This document shows positions 2,159 to 13,039 of a stretch of 25,770 nt of DNA, one piece after another; position 1 is the first letter of the stretch; each line of letters starts with the position of its first letter. Source of the DNA: a virus; the IMG/VR virus record IMGVR_UViG_3300001970_000029, positions 1-25,770 of that record; one strand, written 5' to 3'. A model generated the notes under the pieces. It had not been told where the DNA came from. It did not search any database and worked only from the letters and a program-made list of their open reading frames with translations. Made by a program: the position numbers and the translations under genes.

Positions 2159-3718
2159 ATGAGCCAGATCGAAGACATCGCGATCGACGCGATCGCACCC
2201 AGCCCGCTGAACTACCGCCGCACGTTCGACGAGAGCGCGCTGCGGGAGCTCGGCGAGTCGATCGCCGCGAACGGCCTGATCCAGCCCATCCGAGTCAGAC
2301 CCGTCCTCGAGGGCGAGGAAGACGGCGTCCGCTACGAGGTCGTCGTCGGCGAGCGGCGATGGCGGGCGCACAAGCTGGTCGAGCTGCCCACGATCCGCGC
2401 CGAGGTCGTCGAGATGACCGACGACCAGGTGCTCGAGGTCCAGCTGATCGAGAACCTGCAGCGCGCGAACCCGCATCCGATCGAGGAGGCCGAGGCCTAC
2501 GCGCGGCTCCGAGAACGCGGGCTCACGCTCGCGCAGATCGCATCGAAGGTCGGGCTCTCGATTCCGACCGTGCATCAGCGGCTCAAGCTCTGCGGCCTGA
2601 TCGATCCGGCCCGCGAGGACTTCGACGCCGGCTGGCTCGACCTCGGCGCCATCATGGCCATGGCGCCGCTCGAGGCGCACGTGCAGACCGAGCTGCTCGC
2701 CACGCTGCGTGATCGCCACTACCGGCGCCAGGGCTGGAAAGAGGAGGACCGAGAGAAGCCGGAGGCGGCGATCAACGCCGCAGCCGTCCAGCGCGTGATC
2801 TCCGACCAGTTCCTCCGCGTGATCGCCTCCGCGCCCTTCGACGTCGCCGACGAGGACCTCGTCGCGTCCGCGCCGGCGTGCGCCGCATGCCCGAAGCGAA
2901 CGGGCGAGCAGGAAGGACTGTTCGAGGCCGGCGACGAGGACCAGTGCACGGACGGCGACTGCTGGCGCAGCAAGCTGATCGCCCACTTCAAGCGCCTGAA
3001 GAAGTCGGGCGAGAAGTGCCTGACGAAGGCGCAGGCGGAGACAGCGTTTCATCGCCGCTGGGAAAGTGAGCGGGTTGCGTCGGACGAACACGAGTACGTC
3101 GGCGGGCAGCGCGTGACCGTGACCGAGCTCATCGATGACGAGGAGCCTCTCGTCTACGGGCAGGACGCGCGAACCGGCGAGATCCGGACCTTCGTGGCGA
3201 AGGCAGCCGTCCAGCGCGCAGTCCGCGCACGCACACGCACGCCGGCCTCGAGCGACGAGAAGAAGCGGAAGGAGCAGGAGCGACTCGCGAAGCTCGAGAC
3301 GAAGCGCCAGCGCCACGCGAACCGCACGGCCATCCTCGCCGTGCACGAGGCTACCCGCGCCTCGAACGAGGACATCGTGTTCCTGCTGCGCGCGGTCGTC
3401 GCCGCCATCCGGCACGACGTCGCGAAGGAGATCTGCGACGGCCATGGTCTCGAGGCGCAGCAGGGAGAGTTCGGAGCCCCGGCCTATGCCGAGGCCGTCC
3501 TCGAGTACTTCGAAACCCAGAAGCTCCGCGGCCAGGTCGCCCTCGCCCTCGAGGCACAGATCCGCGAATCGGTGACCTGGGACATGAGCAGGCGCAGCGA
3601 GCTGCTCGAAGCCTGCGTCGAGCGATACGGCGTCGACGTCGTCGCGCTCGAGGCAGCCGCCGCCGAGGCGCTGCCGGACACCAAGGCGAAGAAGCAGCCG
3701 AAGGCGAAGGCCGCGTGA
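2159..3718 (+). CDS. ParB/Spo0J-family DNA-binding protein with C-terminal Cys cluster
   Basis: 519 aa, preceded by a strong GGAGG ribosome site at ~2149-2153. The N-terminal ParB domain is clear: the NYR segment near residue 18, the GERRWRA box at 64-70 and ENLQR at 98-102, which are the CTP-binding motifs of the ParB CTPase fold. A helix-turn-helix follows at 121-143 (LTLAQIASKVGLSIPTVHQRLK). The second half is unlike chromosomal ParB: C241, C244, C263 and C268 form a probable zinc site, then a basic charged helical stretch, and the protein ends in a Lys/Ala-rich tail. No ParA ATPase is visible, and the element has an integrase and attP, so plasmid-style segregation is unlikely from this window alone. 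DNA condensation, transcription control or a nuclease-associated role are alternatives. Confidence 0.9.
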   Translation: MSQIEDIAIDAIAPSPLNYRRTFDESALRELGESIAANGLIQPIRVRPVLEGEEDGVRYEVVVGERRWRAHKLVELPTIRAEVVEMTDDQVLEVQLIENLQRANPHPIEEAEAYARLRERGLTLAQIASKVGLSIPTVHQRLKLCGLIDPAREDFDAGWLDLGAIMAMAPLEAHVQTELLATLRDRHYRRQGWKEEDREKPEAAINAAAVQRVISDQFLRVIASAPFDVADEDLVASAPACAACPKRTGEQEGLFEAGDEDQCTDGDCWRSKLIAHFKRLKKSGEKCLTKAQAETAFHRRWESERVASDEHEYVGGQRVTVTELIDDEEPLVYGQDARTGEIRTFVAKAAVQRAVRARTRTPASSDEKKRKEQERLAKLETKRQRHANRTAILAVHEATRASNEDIVFLLRAVVAAIRHDVAKEICDGHGLEAQQGEFGAPAYAEAVLEYFETQKLRGQVALALEAQIRESVTWDMSRRSELLEACVERYGVDVVALEAAAAEALPDTKAKKQPKAKAA

Positions 3719-4947: not shown

Positions 4948-5119
4948 CCGGGATAGATGGCTGGCCGAGCTGACGCGTGCCGCCGCGGCGGCGGGCATCC
5001 CGAACGACGACGTTCCTGCCGTTGTCGAGGCGCTCGTCGACGAGCCGCGAGATGGCCGCAGCGCGGAGGAGGTCGTTCGCGACGAGCTTGACGCATGGTC
5101 GCCAGGAGACTGCGAATGA
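4940..5119 (+). CDS. Very small acidic protein, unknown
   Basis: 59 aa. The ATG at 4940 overlaps the end of the previous gene by eight bases and follows a GAGAGGCGGGG purine stretch that can act as ribosome site. The product starts MADRDRWLAELTRAAAAAG, has a GIPNDDVPAVVEALVDEP middle, and ends in DAWSPGDCE. It fills an otherwise empty gap in a tightly packed operon, and its stop overlaps the next ATG (ATGA), which supports it as a real coupled gene. No function can be assigned. Confidence 0.6.
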   Translation: MADRDRWLAELTRAAAAAGIPNDDVPAVVEALVDEPRDGRSAEEVVRDELDAWSPGDCE

Positions 5120-5391
5120 GCGCCCGGCGAACGTCCGTCGTGCACTGCAAGCGCGAGTCCTTCGACGTCTACATCGGCCGCCCCGGGCGGTGGGGGAACC
5201 CGTTTCGGATCGGACCCGACGGCACGCGGAGCGAGGTGCTCGAGAAGTTCGAAGCATGGATCCGTGCGCCAGAGCGCGCCGAGCTCCGCGCGGAGGTCCG
5301 GCGCCACCTGCGCGGCAAGGTCCTCGGCTGCTGGTGCGCCCCGAAGGCCTGCCACGGGGACGTGCTGGCCAGGATTGCGGACGAGGGCTGA
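5116..5391 (+). CDS. DUF4326-family protein
   Basis: 91 aa. The ATG at 5116 overlaps the preceding stop and has an AGGAG eight bases upstream (5104-5108); an in-frame ATG at 5095 lacks a comparable site. The family signature is strong: TSVVHCKRESFDVYIGRP near the N-terminus, WGNPF with a following DGTR, and the C-terminal CWCAPKACHGDVL block. DUF4326 proteins are common on phages and mobile elements; the conserved Cys/His residues suggest metal binding or a nucleotide-related enzyme, but no reaction is established that I know of. Confidence 0.85.
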   Translation: MSARRTSVVHCKRESFDVYIGRPGRWGNPFRIGPDGTRSEVLEKFEAWIRAPERAELRAEVRRHLRGKVLGCWCAPKACHGDVLARIADEG

Positions 5392-5392
5392 C

Positions 5393-5614
5393 GTGGGCGC
5401 CGCCGAGGACATCTACACCGTCGAGGAGCTGAAGGCGCTCACGCGCGCCAAGCAGCGAGCGAAGGTGATCGAGGTCCTCGCGCGCAACCGGATCCCGTTC
5501 ATCATCGCCGCGGACGGCTGGCCGTCGGTCGACCGACGTTGGATGCCGGGCGGCAACGTGGTATCGCTGAATGCCCGACGGTCGGAGGAGCCCGACTTCG
5601 ATGCCCTCACGTGA
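5393..5614 (+). CDS. DUF4224-family protein next to the integrase, candidate directionality factor
   Basis: 73 aa from a GTG directly after the DUF4326 stop. The pattern YTVEELKALT, then the KVIEVLARNRIPFIIAADGWPSV segment, is typical of DUF4224, a small domain found beside phage integrases. The layout (short basic helix, turn, then a small beta wing) is compatible with a winged-helix DNA binder. Its end overlaps the integrase start by 14 bases, so the two are co-translated. Position and size fit an excisionase-like recombination directionality factor; that role is inference from context only. Confidence 0.75.
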   Translation: MGAAEDIYTVEELKALTRAKQRAKVIEVLARNRIPFIIAADGWPSVDRRWMPGGNVVSLNARRSEEPDFDALT

Positions 5615-6686
5615 GCCTCACTGGCCGAAGCGGTGGACCTGGAAGCACGGTGCGATCTGGTACCGGACGCGGCCCGACGACCGTCACCTGTGGAACGACC
5701 AGAGCTGGTTCCGACTCGGCGCCACGGAGGCCGAGGCCTGGGCGTGCTGGTTCGATCGTGCCGGCACGACGCCCTCGCAGCCGCTGCAGACAATCGGCGA
5801 CGCGATCCAGCGTTACCGCGGTGAGGTGCTCACGAAGAAGGCGCCGAAGACGCAGCGGGACTATGACCGGGCCCTGAAGCGCCTCGAGCCCGTGTTCGGC
5901 CGCATGCACCCTGCCAAGCTCCGGCCGGTGCACGTCGCTCGCTACATGGACCTCAGGGTGAAGGCAGACGGCACCGGTACCGTGGCGGCGAACCGGGACA
6001 AGGCCGTGCTGTCGGCGGTGATGACGTGCTGCGTGCGGTGGGGCCTGATCGATCGGAACCTGGTGCGCGAGATCTCGCGGTTTGAGGAGACGCCGCGCGA
6101 GCGGTACGTCGAGGACGCGGAGCTCGACGCCTTCCTCGAGCACTGCCGGCAGAGCAGGACGAAGGCCGGCCGCGTCGTGGCCGCGTTCGTCCGCCTGAAG
6201 CTGCTCACAAGCCTTCGCCAGGGCCAGATCCGCCAGCTCCACCGCGCCTGGTGGAAGCCCGCCAGGAACGTCCTCAGCGTGCCCAGCGCGAAGGGAGGCC
6301 TCGCCGTCGAGTACGAGGGCCCCGAGCTCGCCGACGCCATCGAGGAGCTGCAGGACGCGTGCGCAGTCGGGAGAGGCATCGCCAGCGTCTACCTCGCCCC
6401 GACGCGCTCGGGCGCGCCGTACACGGACACCGGGTTCCAGTCGCTGTGGCAGCGGACGATGCGGTCCTACCTGACGGCGAATCCGGGCGCGCGGCGCTTC
6501 ACGGAGCACGATCTGCGAGCGAAGGTCGTCACGGACGAACAGGATCTCGACCTCGCGCGGCGCCGCGCTGGGCATCGATCCGTCAGCACGACGCAGCGGC
6601 ACTATCGCGTACGGCCGGAGCGAGTACCTGTCTCACGAGCGCGCCTGCAGGCCACGAAATCAGGCGGCGGAGACGGGGAAAAGTGA
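5601..6686 (+). CDS. int: Tyrosine-type site-specific integrase
   Basis: 361 aa tyrosine recombinase that would integrate and excise the phage at attP/attB. The catalytic set is complete: R206 (SLRQGQI), K231 (SAKGG), H303-xx-R306 (TEHDLR), H325 (GHRS) and the nucleophile Y335 (QRHYRV). The N-terminal ~60 residues resemble an arm-binding domain (WTWKHGAIWYRTRP), and 65-165 is the SAM-like core-binding domain. The ATG at 5601 is chosen because a GGAGG lies at 5584-5588 and it starts where the DUF4224 gene ends; an ATG at 5571 is also in frame. The 3' end lies 61 bases from a tRNA-Asn fragment, the probable attP core, and the last codons contain putative arm sites. Intact, with no truncation. 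Confidence 0.95.
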   Translation: MPSREPHWPKRWTWKHGAIWYRTRPDDRHLWNDQSWFRLGATEAEAWACWFDRAGTTPSQPLQTIGDAIQRYRGEVLTKKAPKTQRDYDRALKRLEPVFGRMHPAKLRPVHVARYMDLRVKADGTGTVAANRDKAVLSAVMTCCVRWGLIDRNLVREISRFEETPRERYVEDAELDAFLEHCRQSRTKAGRVVAAFVRLKLLTSLRQGQIRQLHRAWWKPARNVLSVPSAKGGLAVEYEGPELADAIEELQDACAVGRGIASVYLAPTRSGAPYTDTGFQSLWQRTMRSYLTANPGARRFTEHDLRAKVVTDEQDLDLARRRAGHRSVSTTQRHYRVRPERVPVSRARLQATKSGGGDGEK

Positions 6687-6690
6687 GACA
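6629..6690. repeat. Putative integrase arm-type sites, integrase side (two copies of TGTCTCAC)
   Basis: TGTCTCAC occurs at 6629-6636 on the plus strand inside the integrase gene and in inverted orientation (GTGAGACA) at 6683-6690 across the integrase stop codon. The same octamer appears twice more on the other side of the tRNA fragment. Four exact octamers within 230 bases, on both sides of an att core, are what integrase arm-binding sites look like in lambda-type systems. The repeats are seen directly; integrase binding is inferred. Confidence 0.6.
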
Positions 6691-6747
6691 GCGCGGTGCG
6701 CACAATGCCCTGTCGCCTCAGCAACTTGCGCGCCGACGAGCATCGAA

Positions 6748-6792
6748 CTGTTAATCAGCGGGTCGCTGGTTCGAGCCCAGCAGGCGGAGCCA
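6748..6792 (+). other. attP core: 3' part of tRNA-Asn(GTT)
   Basis: The segment holds the anticodon loop CTGTTAA (6748-6754, anticodon GTT), a variable region, an intact T-arm (stem GCTGG 6765-6769, loop TTCGAGC, stem CCAGC 6777-6781), the 3' acceptor strand AGGCGGA (6782-6788), discriminator G and encoded CCA (6790-6792). Bases upstream of the loop do not pair with the 3' anticodon stem, and no D-arm or 5' acceptor strand follows the integrase gene, so this is a fragment and not a working tRNA. Phage-borne tRNA 3' ends restore the host gene after integration, which makes tRNA-Asn the expected attB. The left border of identity could differ by several bases. Confidence 0.85.
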
Positions 6793-6807
6793 TACTTTCA
6801 AGCACTT

Positions 6808-6828
6808 AGGGCGCCCAAGGGCGCCCTT
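6808..6828. terminator. Hairpin between convergent integrase and HTH genes
   Basis: Two palindromic GGGCGCCC blocks separated by AA (6809-6826) form an 8-bp GC-only stem, flanked by A on the left and TT on the right. It lies 16 bases after the tRNA CCA end, the usual place of a tRNA terminator, and between the 3' ends of the plus-strand integrase and the minus-strand HTH gene, so it can stop transcription from both sides. The U-tract is weak on each strand. Confidence 0.6.
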
Positions 6829-6830
6829 CG

Positions 6831-6857
6831 TGTCTCACAGGGACGAAGGTGTCTCAC
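6831..6857 (+). repeat. Putative integrase arm-type sites, far side of attP (two copies of TGTCTCAC)
   Basis: TGTCTCAC at 6831-6838 and again at 6850-6857 in direct orientation, 19 bases apart start to start, which is close to two helical turns. The second copy overlaps the stop codon of the HTH gene. A degenerate inverted copy, ACGAGACA, is at 6983-6990. Together with the copies on the integrase side these bracket the tRNA-Asn fragment. Confidence 0.6.
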
Positions 6858-7546
6858 GCACCGCGTCCCCGACCCGCATCCTCCCCCCTCTCGATCCACA
6901 CCGCCAAGCGCGCCTCCAGCGGATCGCGGTCCTCCGTCGGCGCGTACGTGCTAGGGTCGCGTATAGCTGGCCATTCCCTGATACGAGACAGCCCCACTGC
7001 GGCCGTCTTCGGGTCCACTCCATCTCGCTCAGTCATGTCCACGAACAGAGCCAGCACGTACGCGGCACGCTGGCGAGGTGTCATCGCGGGCCATGCGTCG
7101 CCGCACCTGCCTGCCGACTTCGAATAGGAGGCGTCGTCCTTCTCGACAAGATGCTCGAGCACTCGAACACGTCCACGTGGCGCTTCAGGCGAGGCCTCTT
7201 CCCACAAGATCATGGCGTCAGCCAGATCGACGTATCGGGATTCGGCCGAAGGATCGACGGGCGGCGGCTCGCCTGACACCAGCCCCGCGGCCTGCAACAG
7301 CAGGCGCCAGGCGCTGTACGGCATGTCGCTCTCGCCGCTGGTCCAGGCCCGCACCTTCCGCCCGCTCGACAACCCGAGCAGCTGTGCCGCGCCGTTGCCG
7401 GAGAGCCCCGCCATCGAGAGCGCCGCGCGGATCTCGTCTGGCGTCGGCTTCGTGTATCCCGGGTCCGCGAACGGCAGCAGCGCCGTCTCGCGGATGTCCT
7501 TGGCGCCGGCGTTGCCGACGCGGTAGGTGGCTCGTTCTTCAGTCAT
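6854..7546 (-). CDS. Helix-turn-helix (XRE-like) DNA-binding protein
   Basis: 230 aa. Residues ~35-88 (YTKPTPDEIRAALSMAG, NGAAQLLGLSSGRKVRAW, GESDMPYSAWRLLLQAAGL) form the helix-turn-helix pattern seen in regulators on phages and conjugative elements. The remaining ~140 residues match nothing I recognise. The ATG at 7546 is preferred over the one at 7552 because GGAG lies nine bases before it but only three before the other. It follows the RadC gene by 31 bases, with a hairpin between, and should be read from the RadC promoter. It may regulate that promoter, which contains a palindrome. It is not evidently a CI-type repressor: no LexA/CI cleavage or peptidase domain is seen. Confidence 0.7.
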   Translation of the reverse strand: MTEERATYRVGNAGAKDIRETALLPFADPGYTKPTPDEIRAALSMAGLSGNGAAQLLGLSSGRKVRAWTSGESDMPYSAWRLLLQAAGLVSGEPPPVDPSAESRYVDLADAMILWEEASPEAPRGRVRVLEHLVEKDDASYSKSAGRCGDAWPAMTPRQRAAYVLALFVDMTERDGVDPKTAAVGLSRIREWPAIRDPSTYAPTEDRDPLEARLAVWIERGEDAGRGRGA

Positions 7547-7572
7547 GATCATGGTCTCCGATGAGAGAGTGC

Positions 7573-7590
7573 GGGGCTCACAAGAGCCCC
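7573..7590. repeat. Hairpin overlapping the RadC stop codon
   Basis: GGGGCTC (7573-7579) and GAGCCCC (7584-7590) form a 7-bp perfect stem with a 4-base loop; outer GAGAG/CTCTC bases can extend it. It overlaps the RadC stop and precedes the HTH gene's ribosome site on the minus strand. There is no U-tract, so it could be an mRNA-stabilising or translation-control hairpin and not a terminator. Confidence 0.45.
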
Positions 7591-8021
7591 CTCTCCGCCA
7601 GCGAGGTGACGTCCATGCCGCCCACGATGAGGTGGTCGAGGAGGCGGACGTCTACCAGCTCCAGCGCGGAGCGCAGGCGCGCGGTGATGCGCACGTCGGC
7701 GCGGCTGGGCTCGGCGATGCCGGACGGGTGGTTGTGGAAGAAGATCACCGCGGCCGCGTTGGCGCCGAGGGCGGCCTTCACGACCTCGCGGGGATGGACC
7801 GAGGCGCCGTCGACGGTGCCGCGGAAGAGTTCCTCGACCTTCAGCACGCCGTGGCGCGCGTTCAGCCAGAGGGCACCGAAGATCTCGTGCTCGAGCTCGG
7901 CGTAGCGGAGGGTGAGGAAGTGGCGAGCGTCTTCCGGGCTGGCGAGGTAGGTCTCGGCGCGACGGAGACGGTTGCGGAGGATGGTGAGGGCGGAACGGAT
8001 GGTCTGGTCTTCGTTGGTCAT
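7578..8021 (-). CDS. radC: RadC-like JAB/MPN-domain protein
   Basis: 147 aa. The JAMM metal site is complete: a Glu in KVEELFRGT (~64), then FFHNHPSG with the two His (~95-97) and the Asp of PSRAD (~107), followed by a C-terminal DHLIVGG. The N-terminal helix-hairpin-helix domain of full-length chromosomal RadC (about 220 aa) is absent; a short helical extension replaces it. Such short RadC proteins are typical of prophages, plasmids and integrative elements, often beside anti-restriction genes; despite the name, no DNA-repair activity is firmly established. A promoter with an embedded palindrome lies upstream (8082-8110). The family is certain, the role is not. Confidence 0.92.
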   Translation of the reverse strand: MTNEDQTIRSALTILRNRLRRAETYLASPEDARHFLTLRYAELEHEIFGALWLNARHGVLKVEELFRGTVDGASVHPREVVKAALGANAAAVIFFHNHPSGIAEPSRADVRITARLRSALELVDVRLLDHLIVGGMDVTSLAERGLL

Positions 8022-8173: not shown

Positions 8174-8860
8174 TCAATTCTGAAGGGCAGCGGTCTGCTC
8201 CCATGGACAGCTCCCGGCGTCGCTGGCCTCAGCGCCCGCGACGAACCGATTGCGAACACCGGTGACTTCGCCGATTCGCCGATCCCGCTCCAGCTCCCAG
8301 GGCGATACGGGATCCGCTTCGTGCCAAGCCGCGAGCATGGAGAGCTCCCCGGGCACGAGCGCGAGCCCGTAGGTCTCCATCATGTAGGCCCAGATCCGAG
8401 CCACGTCGCCCTTGCGACAGTCGGGCGGCTCGAACGCACCGCGCGAGTCCTCGATCGCGCAGCCACCGAAGTCGCTCGCTTCATCAGGGAGATCGAAGTA
8501 GCGGTCATTGCTTCGCAGCGCGTTCACCTGGCCGATGGCCGGCACCACGTTGTGGAGATCGACGCGCGCCGGGCCCGGCGGCAGGAAAGACTTCGGAACG
8601 ACATGCTCCCACTCGATTCGGCCAGCGCGATGCTGATCGGAGCGAGGCCCCACGTATCCGCACTGAGTCACGTCGGTGATGTCGCCGCTGCCATCGGAGT
8701 CTCGGTGCGACTTGTAGGTGCATCCACAGTAGAAGGTCGTATCCCGGCCCGCGTAGACGACGTCGTCGAGGGTGTTCTTGGCAGAGCGCCAGCTTGCCGC
8801 CTCAGCGGCAGACGCAACCAGGAGGAGAGCGAGCGGCAGTAGGTATCGCGGGAGGTTCAT
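8174..8860 (-). CDS. endA: Secreted endonuclease I (EndA/Vvn-like)
   Basis: 228 aa with a clear signal peptide (residues 1-22: NLPRYLLPLALLLVASAAEA), so it should act in the periplasm or outside the cell. The beta-beta-alpha-metal nuclease core of the endonuclease I family is present: EWEHVVPKS (E85, H86 as metal/general base residues), DLHNVVPA, and QVNALRSNDRY with N113 as likely metal ligand, then the C-terminal WELERDRRIGEVTGVRNRF block. Several Cys (CGC near 45-47, C67) fit disulfides in the periplasm. It digests double-stranded DNA non-specifically. AAGGA eight bases before the ATG is a suitable ribosome site. A chromosomal-type periplasmic nuclease lying between attP and the tail genes is unusual for a phage and looks like acquired cargo. 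Confidence 0.9.
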   Translation of the reverse strand: MNLPRYLLPLALLLVASAAEAASWRSAKNTLDDVVYAGRDTTFYCGCTYKSHRDSDGSGDITDVTQCGYVGPRSDQHRAGRIEWEHVVPKSFLPPGPARVDLHNVVPAIGQVNALRSNDRYFDLPDEASDFGGCAIEDSRGAFEPPDCRKGDVARIWAYMMETYGLALVPGELSMLAAWHEADPVSPWELERDRRIGEVTGVRNRFVAGAEASDAGSCPWEQTAALQN

Positions 8861-12400: not shown

Positions 12401-13039
12401 CAGCGTGCGGATGATCTCGTCGTCGATGCGGAAGTAGATCACGCCGTCCGTGCTCGGTGCGTCCGACCAGCCAGTACCGTGGTCGACCCCGGTGAGCACG
12501 GTGGCATCGACGACCGGGATCGTCGTGGCCGTGTCCGAGATCGGCGCCGTGAGCCGCGTCTCCTTCGCCTCGAACACGCGCCGACGGGATCCGCGCTGGA
12601 CGTCGGCGCAGCGGAACGAGATTTCGGTACCGGACCTCGAGGCCTGACAGCTCTGCAGGATCTGCGTCGTGACGAGCTCGTAGCTCGCGAAGGGGATCCG
12701 GCGATCGCCGACGAACAGCTGCACGCGCTTCCCGAACGCACCGCGCTCATGCGTCAGCAGCTGCGTGCGCAGCTCGTCCGTCAGGCTGGCACCGATGTCG
12801 GTGATCGTGAACGACAGAGCGCCGATCTCGCTGCGACCCTCGGTGGGTCGCACGCGCTGGGAGAGGTTCGAGAGCTTGCGGATTCGCGCATCGACGACGG
12901 TCCCGCTGCCGGGCACGACGTCTGCGTGCGAAACGATCCACAGCTCGACGCCGCCGCCCATGTCGATCCGGAGGGCGAACCGCCGCTCGCGGCGCCTTGA
13001 GGCATTGACGGCGCCGAAGGCCTTGTTGAAGTCCAGCAC
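9407..13039 (-). CDS. Tail-tip / receptor-binding fusion protein (hub, beta-fibre, C1q-like tip)
   Basis: 1210 aa from the GTG at 13039, four bases after the preceding stop; a GTG at 13096 would add 19 residues and overlap that gene. Residues ~1-520 look like a baseplate-hub or tail-tip domain, ending near LGDLVRLATSHARLWTG. About 560-640 is a repetitive beta-rich stretch (LTLSGNADLTAAGAVYYAG, LTIAAGVTV) suggesting a beta-helix shaft. About 640-820 is glycine-rich (GGSSGGPGG, GGGAGGAPGG patterns). Later comes a fibre linker typical of phage (DGDRWWDNDDFRYYERDGGAW), and the last ~130 residues resemble a C1q/TNF-like jelly roll (EPGVYMLNLRLVV and FRFVSSHQTVVV). It probably combines tail closure with receptor recognition. 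Tail role strong; domain borders approximate. Confidence 0.8.
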   Translation of the reverse strand: MLDFNKAFGAVNASRRRERRFALRIDMGGGVELWIVSHADVVPGSGTVVDARIRKLSNLSQRVRPTEGRSEIGALSFTITDIGASLTDELRTQLLTHERGAFGKRVQLFVGDRRIPFASYELVTTQILQSCQASRSGTEISFRCADVQRGSRRRVFEAKETRLTAPISDTATTIPVVDATVLTGVDHGTGWSDAPSTDGVIYFRIDDEIIRTLQADRTATTFTNCIRGVLGTRAAEHTTDEGVASSPDKGKKVEEVVYLEGPAVKLAYAIQTGVQINQLGTWPEHWHAGLVAADVKLTDYTGIGKDVYDPDDDTAGIIFRFVDPGAQDAKRFVETEIMRPAGLFQPVLADGQLGLRRIRRIVAGAAAVVTLRDRDLTAAPAIDLRGEDVRNDILLKWNEVDGDLTRSVEVVDEGSQGKWGAREQYVIEARGLHGSRNSRSRVVAIVQQAFDRRSSPPLSAKGEVSTRFCGIELGDLVRLATSHARLWTGASGAVDHPFEVQAISTDWLRGRVSLTLEGSSQAADPLKPLGTDTSIPDAWFVGTGTDIAGLTGVVDQGDFLEVTADLTLSGNADLTAAGAVYYAGKDLTIAAGVTVTYDQNVQLRVRGVMTVNGKLDGKGGGLTGVADTLDVSGIPDYPTQLGPVDVTFQSGQAGGFGVTQAHGGLIERVRQESVGSRFFGVLQSVPAPLTTGAFDVMPLFQLEYRGGDVEGLPADLRGSSGGPGGLRYYEDTLPSPNLVQVNRGGTGGAGGAGLALITRGFAFGASGQIDSSGLDGSVGAYAAGNAQPAHAGGGAGGAPGGILIVVDGALNPAPGTITGKVVADYGSAPLPSASYTELPDPLIMDTKFGFGFEVPDDRFTRDLSSSSGVDASAAATRIQFMPSASSAEEDIDDAAVAARQQLSLTAAELYSSVADNGRTVVRLTVQEISVDSLYSHAMIYGRTTSGPGPWERFGPAEPTRDIELPADGVECEFVPVPVLTNNLEADFSDRGTGTTITVTSGTAGVPYAIIDNAPTFFDQPTEPSSLVSDDGDRWWDNDDFRYYERDGGAWQLVATANAGSLERSRYTSGGTFTNGAHMPWTYVDGDAPITIVGGDELEFDEPGVYMLNLRLVVEDDTVAQNRQLVLTWEERPDGGSWSDVTNGIISHANPERFRFVSSHQTVVVATAANHRARLEETSGASGSLVEFDSGTSGQGPTALEVIRLVQEPKT

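Follow-up and report, generated by a model that had tools for sequence, protein, structure and literature searches.

Features at the integrase end of the window

The window, that is, the whole stretch of DNA analysed here, is the entire linear IMG/VR record IMGVR_UViG_3300001970_000029 (25,770 bases). A tyrosine integrase gene, int (5571–6686, plus strand; 371 aa; PHROG phrog_1, 2e-34), is followed by a 46 nt core (6747–6792, plus strand) formed by the 3′ half of a tRNA-Asn(GTT) gene, from the anticodon stem/loop to CCA, and by a convergent gene on the minus strand (6854–7552; 232 aa, phrog_8351, HTH-like N-terminus). ARAGORN found no tRNA in the window, as expected for half a gene. Phage genes flank the region on both sides: to the left lie int, the DUF4326 (5095–5391) and ParB-like (2159–3718) genes and an RdgC-like ORF, and to the right lie genes for a RadC-like JAB protein (7578–8021), an endonuclease I-like secreted nuclease (8174–8860), and tail, portal and terminase proteins. 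The ParB-like, DUF4326, RadC-like and nuclease genes belong to accessory regions of the phage. The RdgC-like ORF (1–1137), which is open at the window start, matches phrog_724 (1.6e-51) and NCBIfam RdgC models and ends in an FtsK gamma-like winged helix (PRK10263, 1e-17); it is an apparent RdgC–FtsK-gamma fusion in a phage.

The octamer TGTCTCAC occurs four times in the window, each time exactly and always within 6629–6857, around the tRNA-Asn(GTT) fragment. Arm-type site 1 (P1-like; 6629–6636, plus strand) lies inside the int coding sequence. Site 2 (P2-like; 6683–6690, minus strand) is its inverted partner 54 bp further on (approximately 53–69 in relatives) and contains the int stop codon. 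Site 3 (P′1-like; 6831–6838, plus strand) is located 38 bp past the core, and site 4 (P′2-like; 6850–6857, plus strand) 19 bp past site 3. The arrangement of two exact copies per side of the core described in an earlier note on this DNA is confirmed, with no further copy elsewhere in the window. A degenerate fifth copy that the same note had placed at 6983–6990 (ACGAGACA) carries two mismatches; as one of 108 sites at that level in the window it is chance-level, and was dropped.

The earlier note had also described arm sites and gene ends as interlocked, and the overlap is tighter than claimed: the int stop codon (TGA, 6684–6686) lies within site 2 and that of the HTH gene (TGA, 6856–6854, minus strand) within site 4, both in the same octamer register, G-TGA-GACA. 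This recurs in relatives; the int stop codon is inside an arm word in 14 of 53 family members, and in seven an arm word begins at the same offset (−4). Only the 3′ end of the convergent gene overlaps site 4. Its product, encoded next to the P′ arm, matches the VC1465 Xer recombination activation factor family weakly, below the cut-off, and is a candidate regulator or directionality factor.

An IHF-like site (TTTCAAGCACTTA; 6796–6808, plus strand), with 8 of 9 consensus bases, occupies an H′-like position 35 bp before site 3. It is the one clear site of its kind in the window; the H1- and H2-like positions are degenerate, which counts against reading the region as an attP. Shortly past the core, a perfect hairpin, AGGGCGCCC-AA-GGGCGCCCT (6808–6827), can be read in the sequence. 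Similar hairpins follow the tRNA fragment in L088, L096, L218 and L242, and the hairpin may possibly be a phage-supplied replacement terminator for a rebuilt tRNA gene.

The integrase matches Pfam PF00589 at 9e-6, just below the cut-off of that model. Its AlphaFold2 model (pLDDT 88.6) was used in a fold search of the PDB, where the best match was full-length lambda Int (1z1b, 1.5e-10, approximately 366 aligned columns); phmmer against the PDB gave nothing relevant. The model contains an N-terminal arm-binding domain of b-b-h-b-a order (approximately residues 20–63; strands 22–25, 28–32 and 46–50, helix 53–63), which precedes the core-binding and catalytic domains. Family alignments place the catalytic R-K-H-R-H-Y set at K241, H313, R316, H335 and Y345 plus the box-I Arg. 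Both the catalytic set and the N-terminal domain of three strands and a helix that mark heterobivalent tyrosine integrases are thus present.

The tRNA-Asn core, the likely host and the division of arm sites in a prophage

No near relative of the window phage was found. A search of viral contigs with the single integrase protein gave no relative, whereas alignment-based searches did, and TerL relatives, only 38–46 % identical, were unhelpful for att conservation. Conservation was therefore tested on the integrase family and the host site instead of on sister phages.

The tRNA-Asn fragment reported by the earlier note is real: all 46 nt are identical to the 3′ part of intact tRNA-Asn(GTT) genes in L099/G005 (Gammaproteobacteria MAG 8_bin.20), G007 and other genomes of one gammaproteobacterial family. 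In L099 the intact tRNA gene adjoins the integrase closest to that of the window. The exact core was present in 1 of 369 genomes sampled across the gammaproteobacterial class (L099’s own), and within the one family in 20/61 and 21/61 sampled genomes (the two samples overlap). The three closest integrases (L097, L098 and L099) all come from this family. The L098 integrase is near the same tRNA, with no arm sites recognised, and was left out as layout evidence. In two further loci, L274 (G380) and L277 (G394), the 46 nt tRNA-Asn 3′ half is present without the 5′ half; these copies are ends of other elements integrated at tRNA-Asn in the likely host family.

The earlier note had named, as a result that would speak against an attP, related genomes retaining the core but not the octamers. 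The genomes compared favour the attP. In G402 an intact tRNA-Asn gene with an identical core is followed after 38 bp by TGTCTCAC-19-TGTCTCAC, the same distance and spacing as in the window. A broken integrase gene lies beyond this pair and a uvrB-like ORF, identified by eye from its translation, lies 5′ of the tRNA. L099, the closest integrase relative, carries TGTCTCAT twice, 19 apart. No intact prophage of the window phage, of the kind that the earlier note suggested seeking in tRNA-Asn(GTT), was found among the genomes examined. Since the 46 nt core and the G402 site fall in one family, the host probably belongs to the gammaproteobacterial family of the three closest integrases.

That a prophage keeps its arm sites divided between its two ends, as the earlier note had argued, is borne out in a relative that has this octamer too, Halomonas organivorans (G003, contig C18). 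There an inverted TGTCTCAC pair is located beside int (52856–52928) and the direct 19 bp pair, as predicted, at 12631–12657. The two pairs are 40.2 kb apart on the same contig, and each is beside the same 31 bp core, part of tRNA-Gly(CCC). Both prophage halves were also sought by pattern in G001, G002, G004 and others, with at most one half found in each. The window is arranged as a lambda-type attP should be, with arm-type sites on both sides of a single core that is identical to a host attB over all its length, and it has phage genes to either side. The completeness claimed by the earlier note therefore stands.

The simplest reading is that the window DNA is unintegrated. Tandem prophages at the same tRNA, or an assembly that joined two prophage ends at the 46 bp core, would give a similar contig: the record is linear and metagenomic, the core would be a perfect repeat in a lysogen, and the G007 contig breaks exactly at the CCA of tRNA-Asn. 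Excised phage DNA is the simpler explanation, however, and either of these origins is judged improbable. The identity of the site would be unchanged in any case, because P, core and P′ derive either way from both halves of a single attP. With the sites intact on both sides, the region is almost certainly a temperate phage attP, complete and unsplit, for a heterobivalent tyrosine integrase of the lambda-like kind.

In such an attP, the four TGTCTCAC arm sites, inverted and 54 bp apart on the int side, direct and 19 bp apart across the core, would be bound by the small N-terminal domain of the integrase. The tRNA-Asn 3′ half would be where the core-binding and catalytic domains act. Each Int of lambda bridges one arm and one core site with the help of IHF bends (PMC4880445). 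By analogy, we infer IHF-assisted arm–core bridging in the window attP as well, with IHF-type bends drawing the arms towards the core. On recombination with tRNA-Asn(GTT) of the host, the phage 3′ half would restore a whole tRNA gene. The direct pair would then closely follow this intact tRNA, and the inverted pair would stay next to int at the opposite end of the prophage.

Attachment-site layout and arm words across the integrase family

The alignment-based searches yielded 79 loci in genomes and 69 viral contigs. A de novo search allowing any 7-mer found a four-site layout with a tRNA fragment in its midst, X(+) ~54–66 X(−) ~145 X(+) 19 X(+), in 25 of 137 integrase-end regions and in 0 of 2,740 shuffles (preserving base composition only). 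Site 1 of the window has its equivalent at the same place in the 24 other attPs. Among 89 non-redundant integrase-end regions, 23 have exact 8-mer direct repeats at a spacing of 19, against a mean of 0.83 per spacing, and inverted pairs peak at 64–67; an 18–20 bp direct pair is present in sixty family regions. The P-arm spacing of 54 in the window is about one helical turn below the usual 64, and this counts against the attP reading. IHF-like sites number 45 in the 25 attPs, the window included, where 8.4 are expected, mostly at X1+29/30, X1+81–86 and X3−33 to −37. No description of the layout was found in the part of the literature covered.

The octamer TGTCTCAC itself also stands next to integrases in Halomonas, in Rhodocyclaceae and in a MAG of Verrucomicrobia. 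An exact 19 bp TGTCTCAC pair is carried by 12 viral contigs, of which L180 alone has a full attP with a family integrase (TGTCTCAC at 7745+, 7810−, 7975+ and 7994+; tRNA-Lys core). In the other 11 there is no family integrase in the examined locus (in L178, a weak one only), and most of them are without the inverted pair. Viral contigs L181 and L187 are a separate case: seven to ten copies of TGTCTCAC/GTGAGACA are packed into approximately 300 bases, and no integrase was recognised in the examined locus.

Orientation of the attP relative to int is variable. The integrase gene lies on the inverted-pair side in 15 of 57 members and on the direct-pair side in 42; nine changes are placed on the integrase tree, seven of them forced by well-supported branches. 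The window and its sister L099 themselves differ in this respect.

The octamer differs among relatives, and its differences follow the integrase N-terminal domain. Across 47 integrases, arm-word similarity tracks the N-domain once catalytic identity is controlled for (partial r 0.22; 0/2,000 permutations), compared with r 0.03 for arm word and catalytic domain. Where a GAGACA word and a readable N-domain occur together, residues 45–46 are Ser/Thr followed by an aromatic in 5/5 integrases, versus 1/52 others (Fisher 1.4e-6, with kinship ignored; the five belong to three lineages). The window integrase has S-W at these positions. This covariation points to the N-domain as the predicted binder of the arm sites. 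The repeats could instead be bound by another protein, such as an excisionase, a repressor or the convergent HTH protein, given that excisionases also bind direct repeats near att sites (five at 10–11 bp spacing for 186 Apl; PMC7498355) and that site 4 touches the HTH gene. In the window, however, the spacing is 19 and not 10–11, the copies flank the core on both sides in the order and orientation of lambda arm sites, and the octamer tracks the integrase, down to residues 45–46; binding by a protein other than the integrase is accordingly rated very unlikely. No Xis/RDF gene or sites were identified, and this is counted against the attP reading.

Clustering was assessed on its own terms as well. 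TGTCTCAC is expected 0.72 times in a window of this length, and four copies occurred in 0 of 100 shuffles; for the four octamers in approximately 230 bases singled out by the earlier note, none of 5,000 local dinucleotide shuffles reached that count. If any octamer may count, a word with four copies within 240 bases turns up in 42 of 100 shuffled windows. The octamer cluster alone is therefore weak evidence, and the case for arm sites is made by the relatives. A chance cluster in GC-rich DNA, to which that figure of 42 lends itself, has next to no probability, since the words in the shuffles are mostly G+C-rich but TGTCTCAC is not, and since the repetition of layout, spacing and octamer in independent genomes already refutes chance.

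For the family as a whole, a slightly better than even case can be made for a single strict attP grammar (X+ ~64 X− ~145 X+ 19 X+, IHF sites keeping constant offsets). On this reading the octamer alone would vary and be recognised by a small number of N-domain residues (45–46 for GAGACA), the whole attP cassette would repeatedly invert relative to int, and an arm site would often supply the int stop codon. The attP itself is ordinary in kind and unusually well supported; what it offers is comparison. With a layout that stays constant and an octamer that changes, arm sites can be found by sequence alone in many uncultured phages, a free phage genome can be told from the end of a prophage, and the code by which arm-binding domains recognise their sites can be put to the test. 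The tRNA-Asn core points in addition to a host, within a gammaproteobacterial family. For a specialist, the layout shared across the family and the arm code may be the useful parts.

Comparison with known attachment sites

The nearest annotated phage integrase is that of Xanthomonas phage PBR31 (L002; 34 % identity). Its attP has the four-site layout (64-144-19) with int on the same side as in the window, but a different octamer (TGGGTCAT) and a core in a tRNA-Ser gene. L099 has the closest integrase (51 % over residues 145–354) and an identical tRNA-Asn core, and like the G402 remnant it carries TGTCTCAT or TGTCTCAC pairs 19 bp apart; in L099, however, int is on the direct-pair side of the core, so that the attP is flipped relative to int. 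P2-like phages (Smp131, 186) have arm repeats around the core (PMC3931495, PMC7498355), and Smp131 shares with the window a core at a tRNA 3′ end. The arm sites reported for the P2 type are two direct repeats on each side, and Smp131 shows repeats on one side only.

With the same tools, lambda attP gave arm sites at 27590 (plus) and 27620 (minus), the core at 27724 and three further plus-strand sites at 27786, 27796 and 27807. Its IHF sites fall between P1 and P2 and on either side of the core, H′ being between the core and P′1. Lambda spaces P1 and P2 by 30 bp and P′1-P′2-P′3 by 10–11 bp, whereas the window has 54 bp and two P′ sites at 19; the octamer is unlike AGTCACTAT; in the window the core sits in a tRNA gene, and int is on the P side instead of the P′ side. 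Lambda attP (P1-H1-P2-H2-COC′-H′-P′1-P′2-P′3) nevertheless shares its order and orientation with the window: a plus arm, an inverted arm, the core and direct plus arms. Lambda and the attP family of the window also have IHF sites in the same places, between the P sites and on either side of the core. In both lambda and the window the last arm site extends as far as the 3′ end of int, and the integrase has the same three domains.
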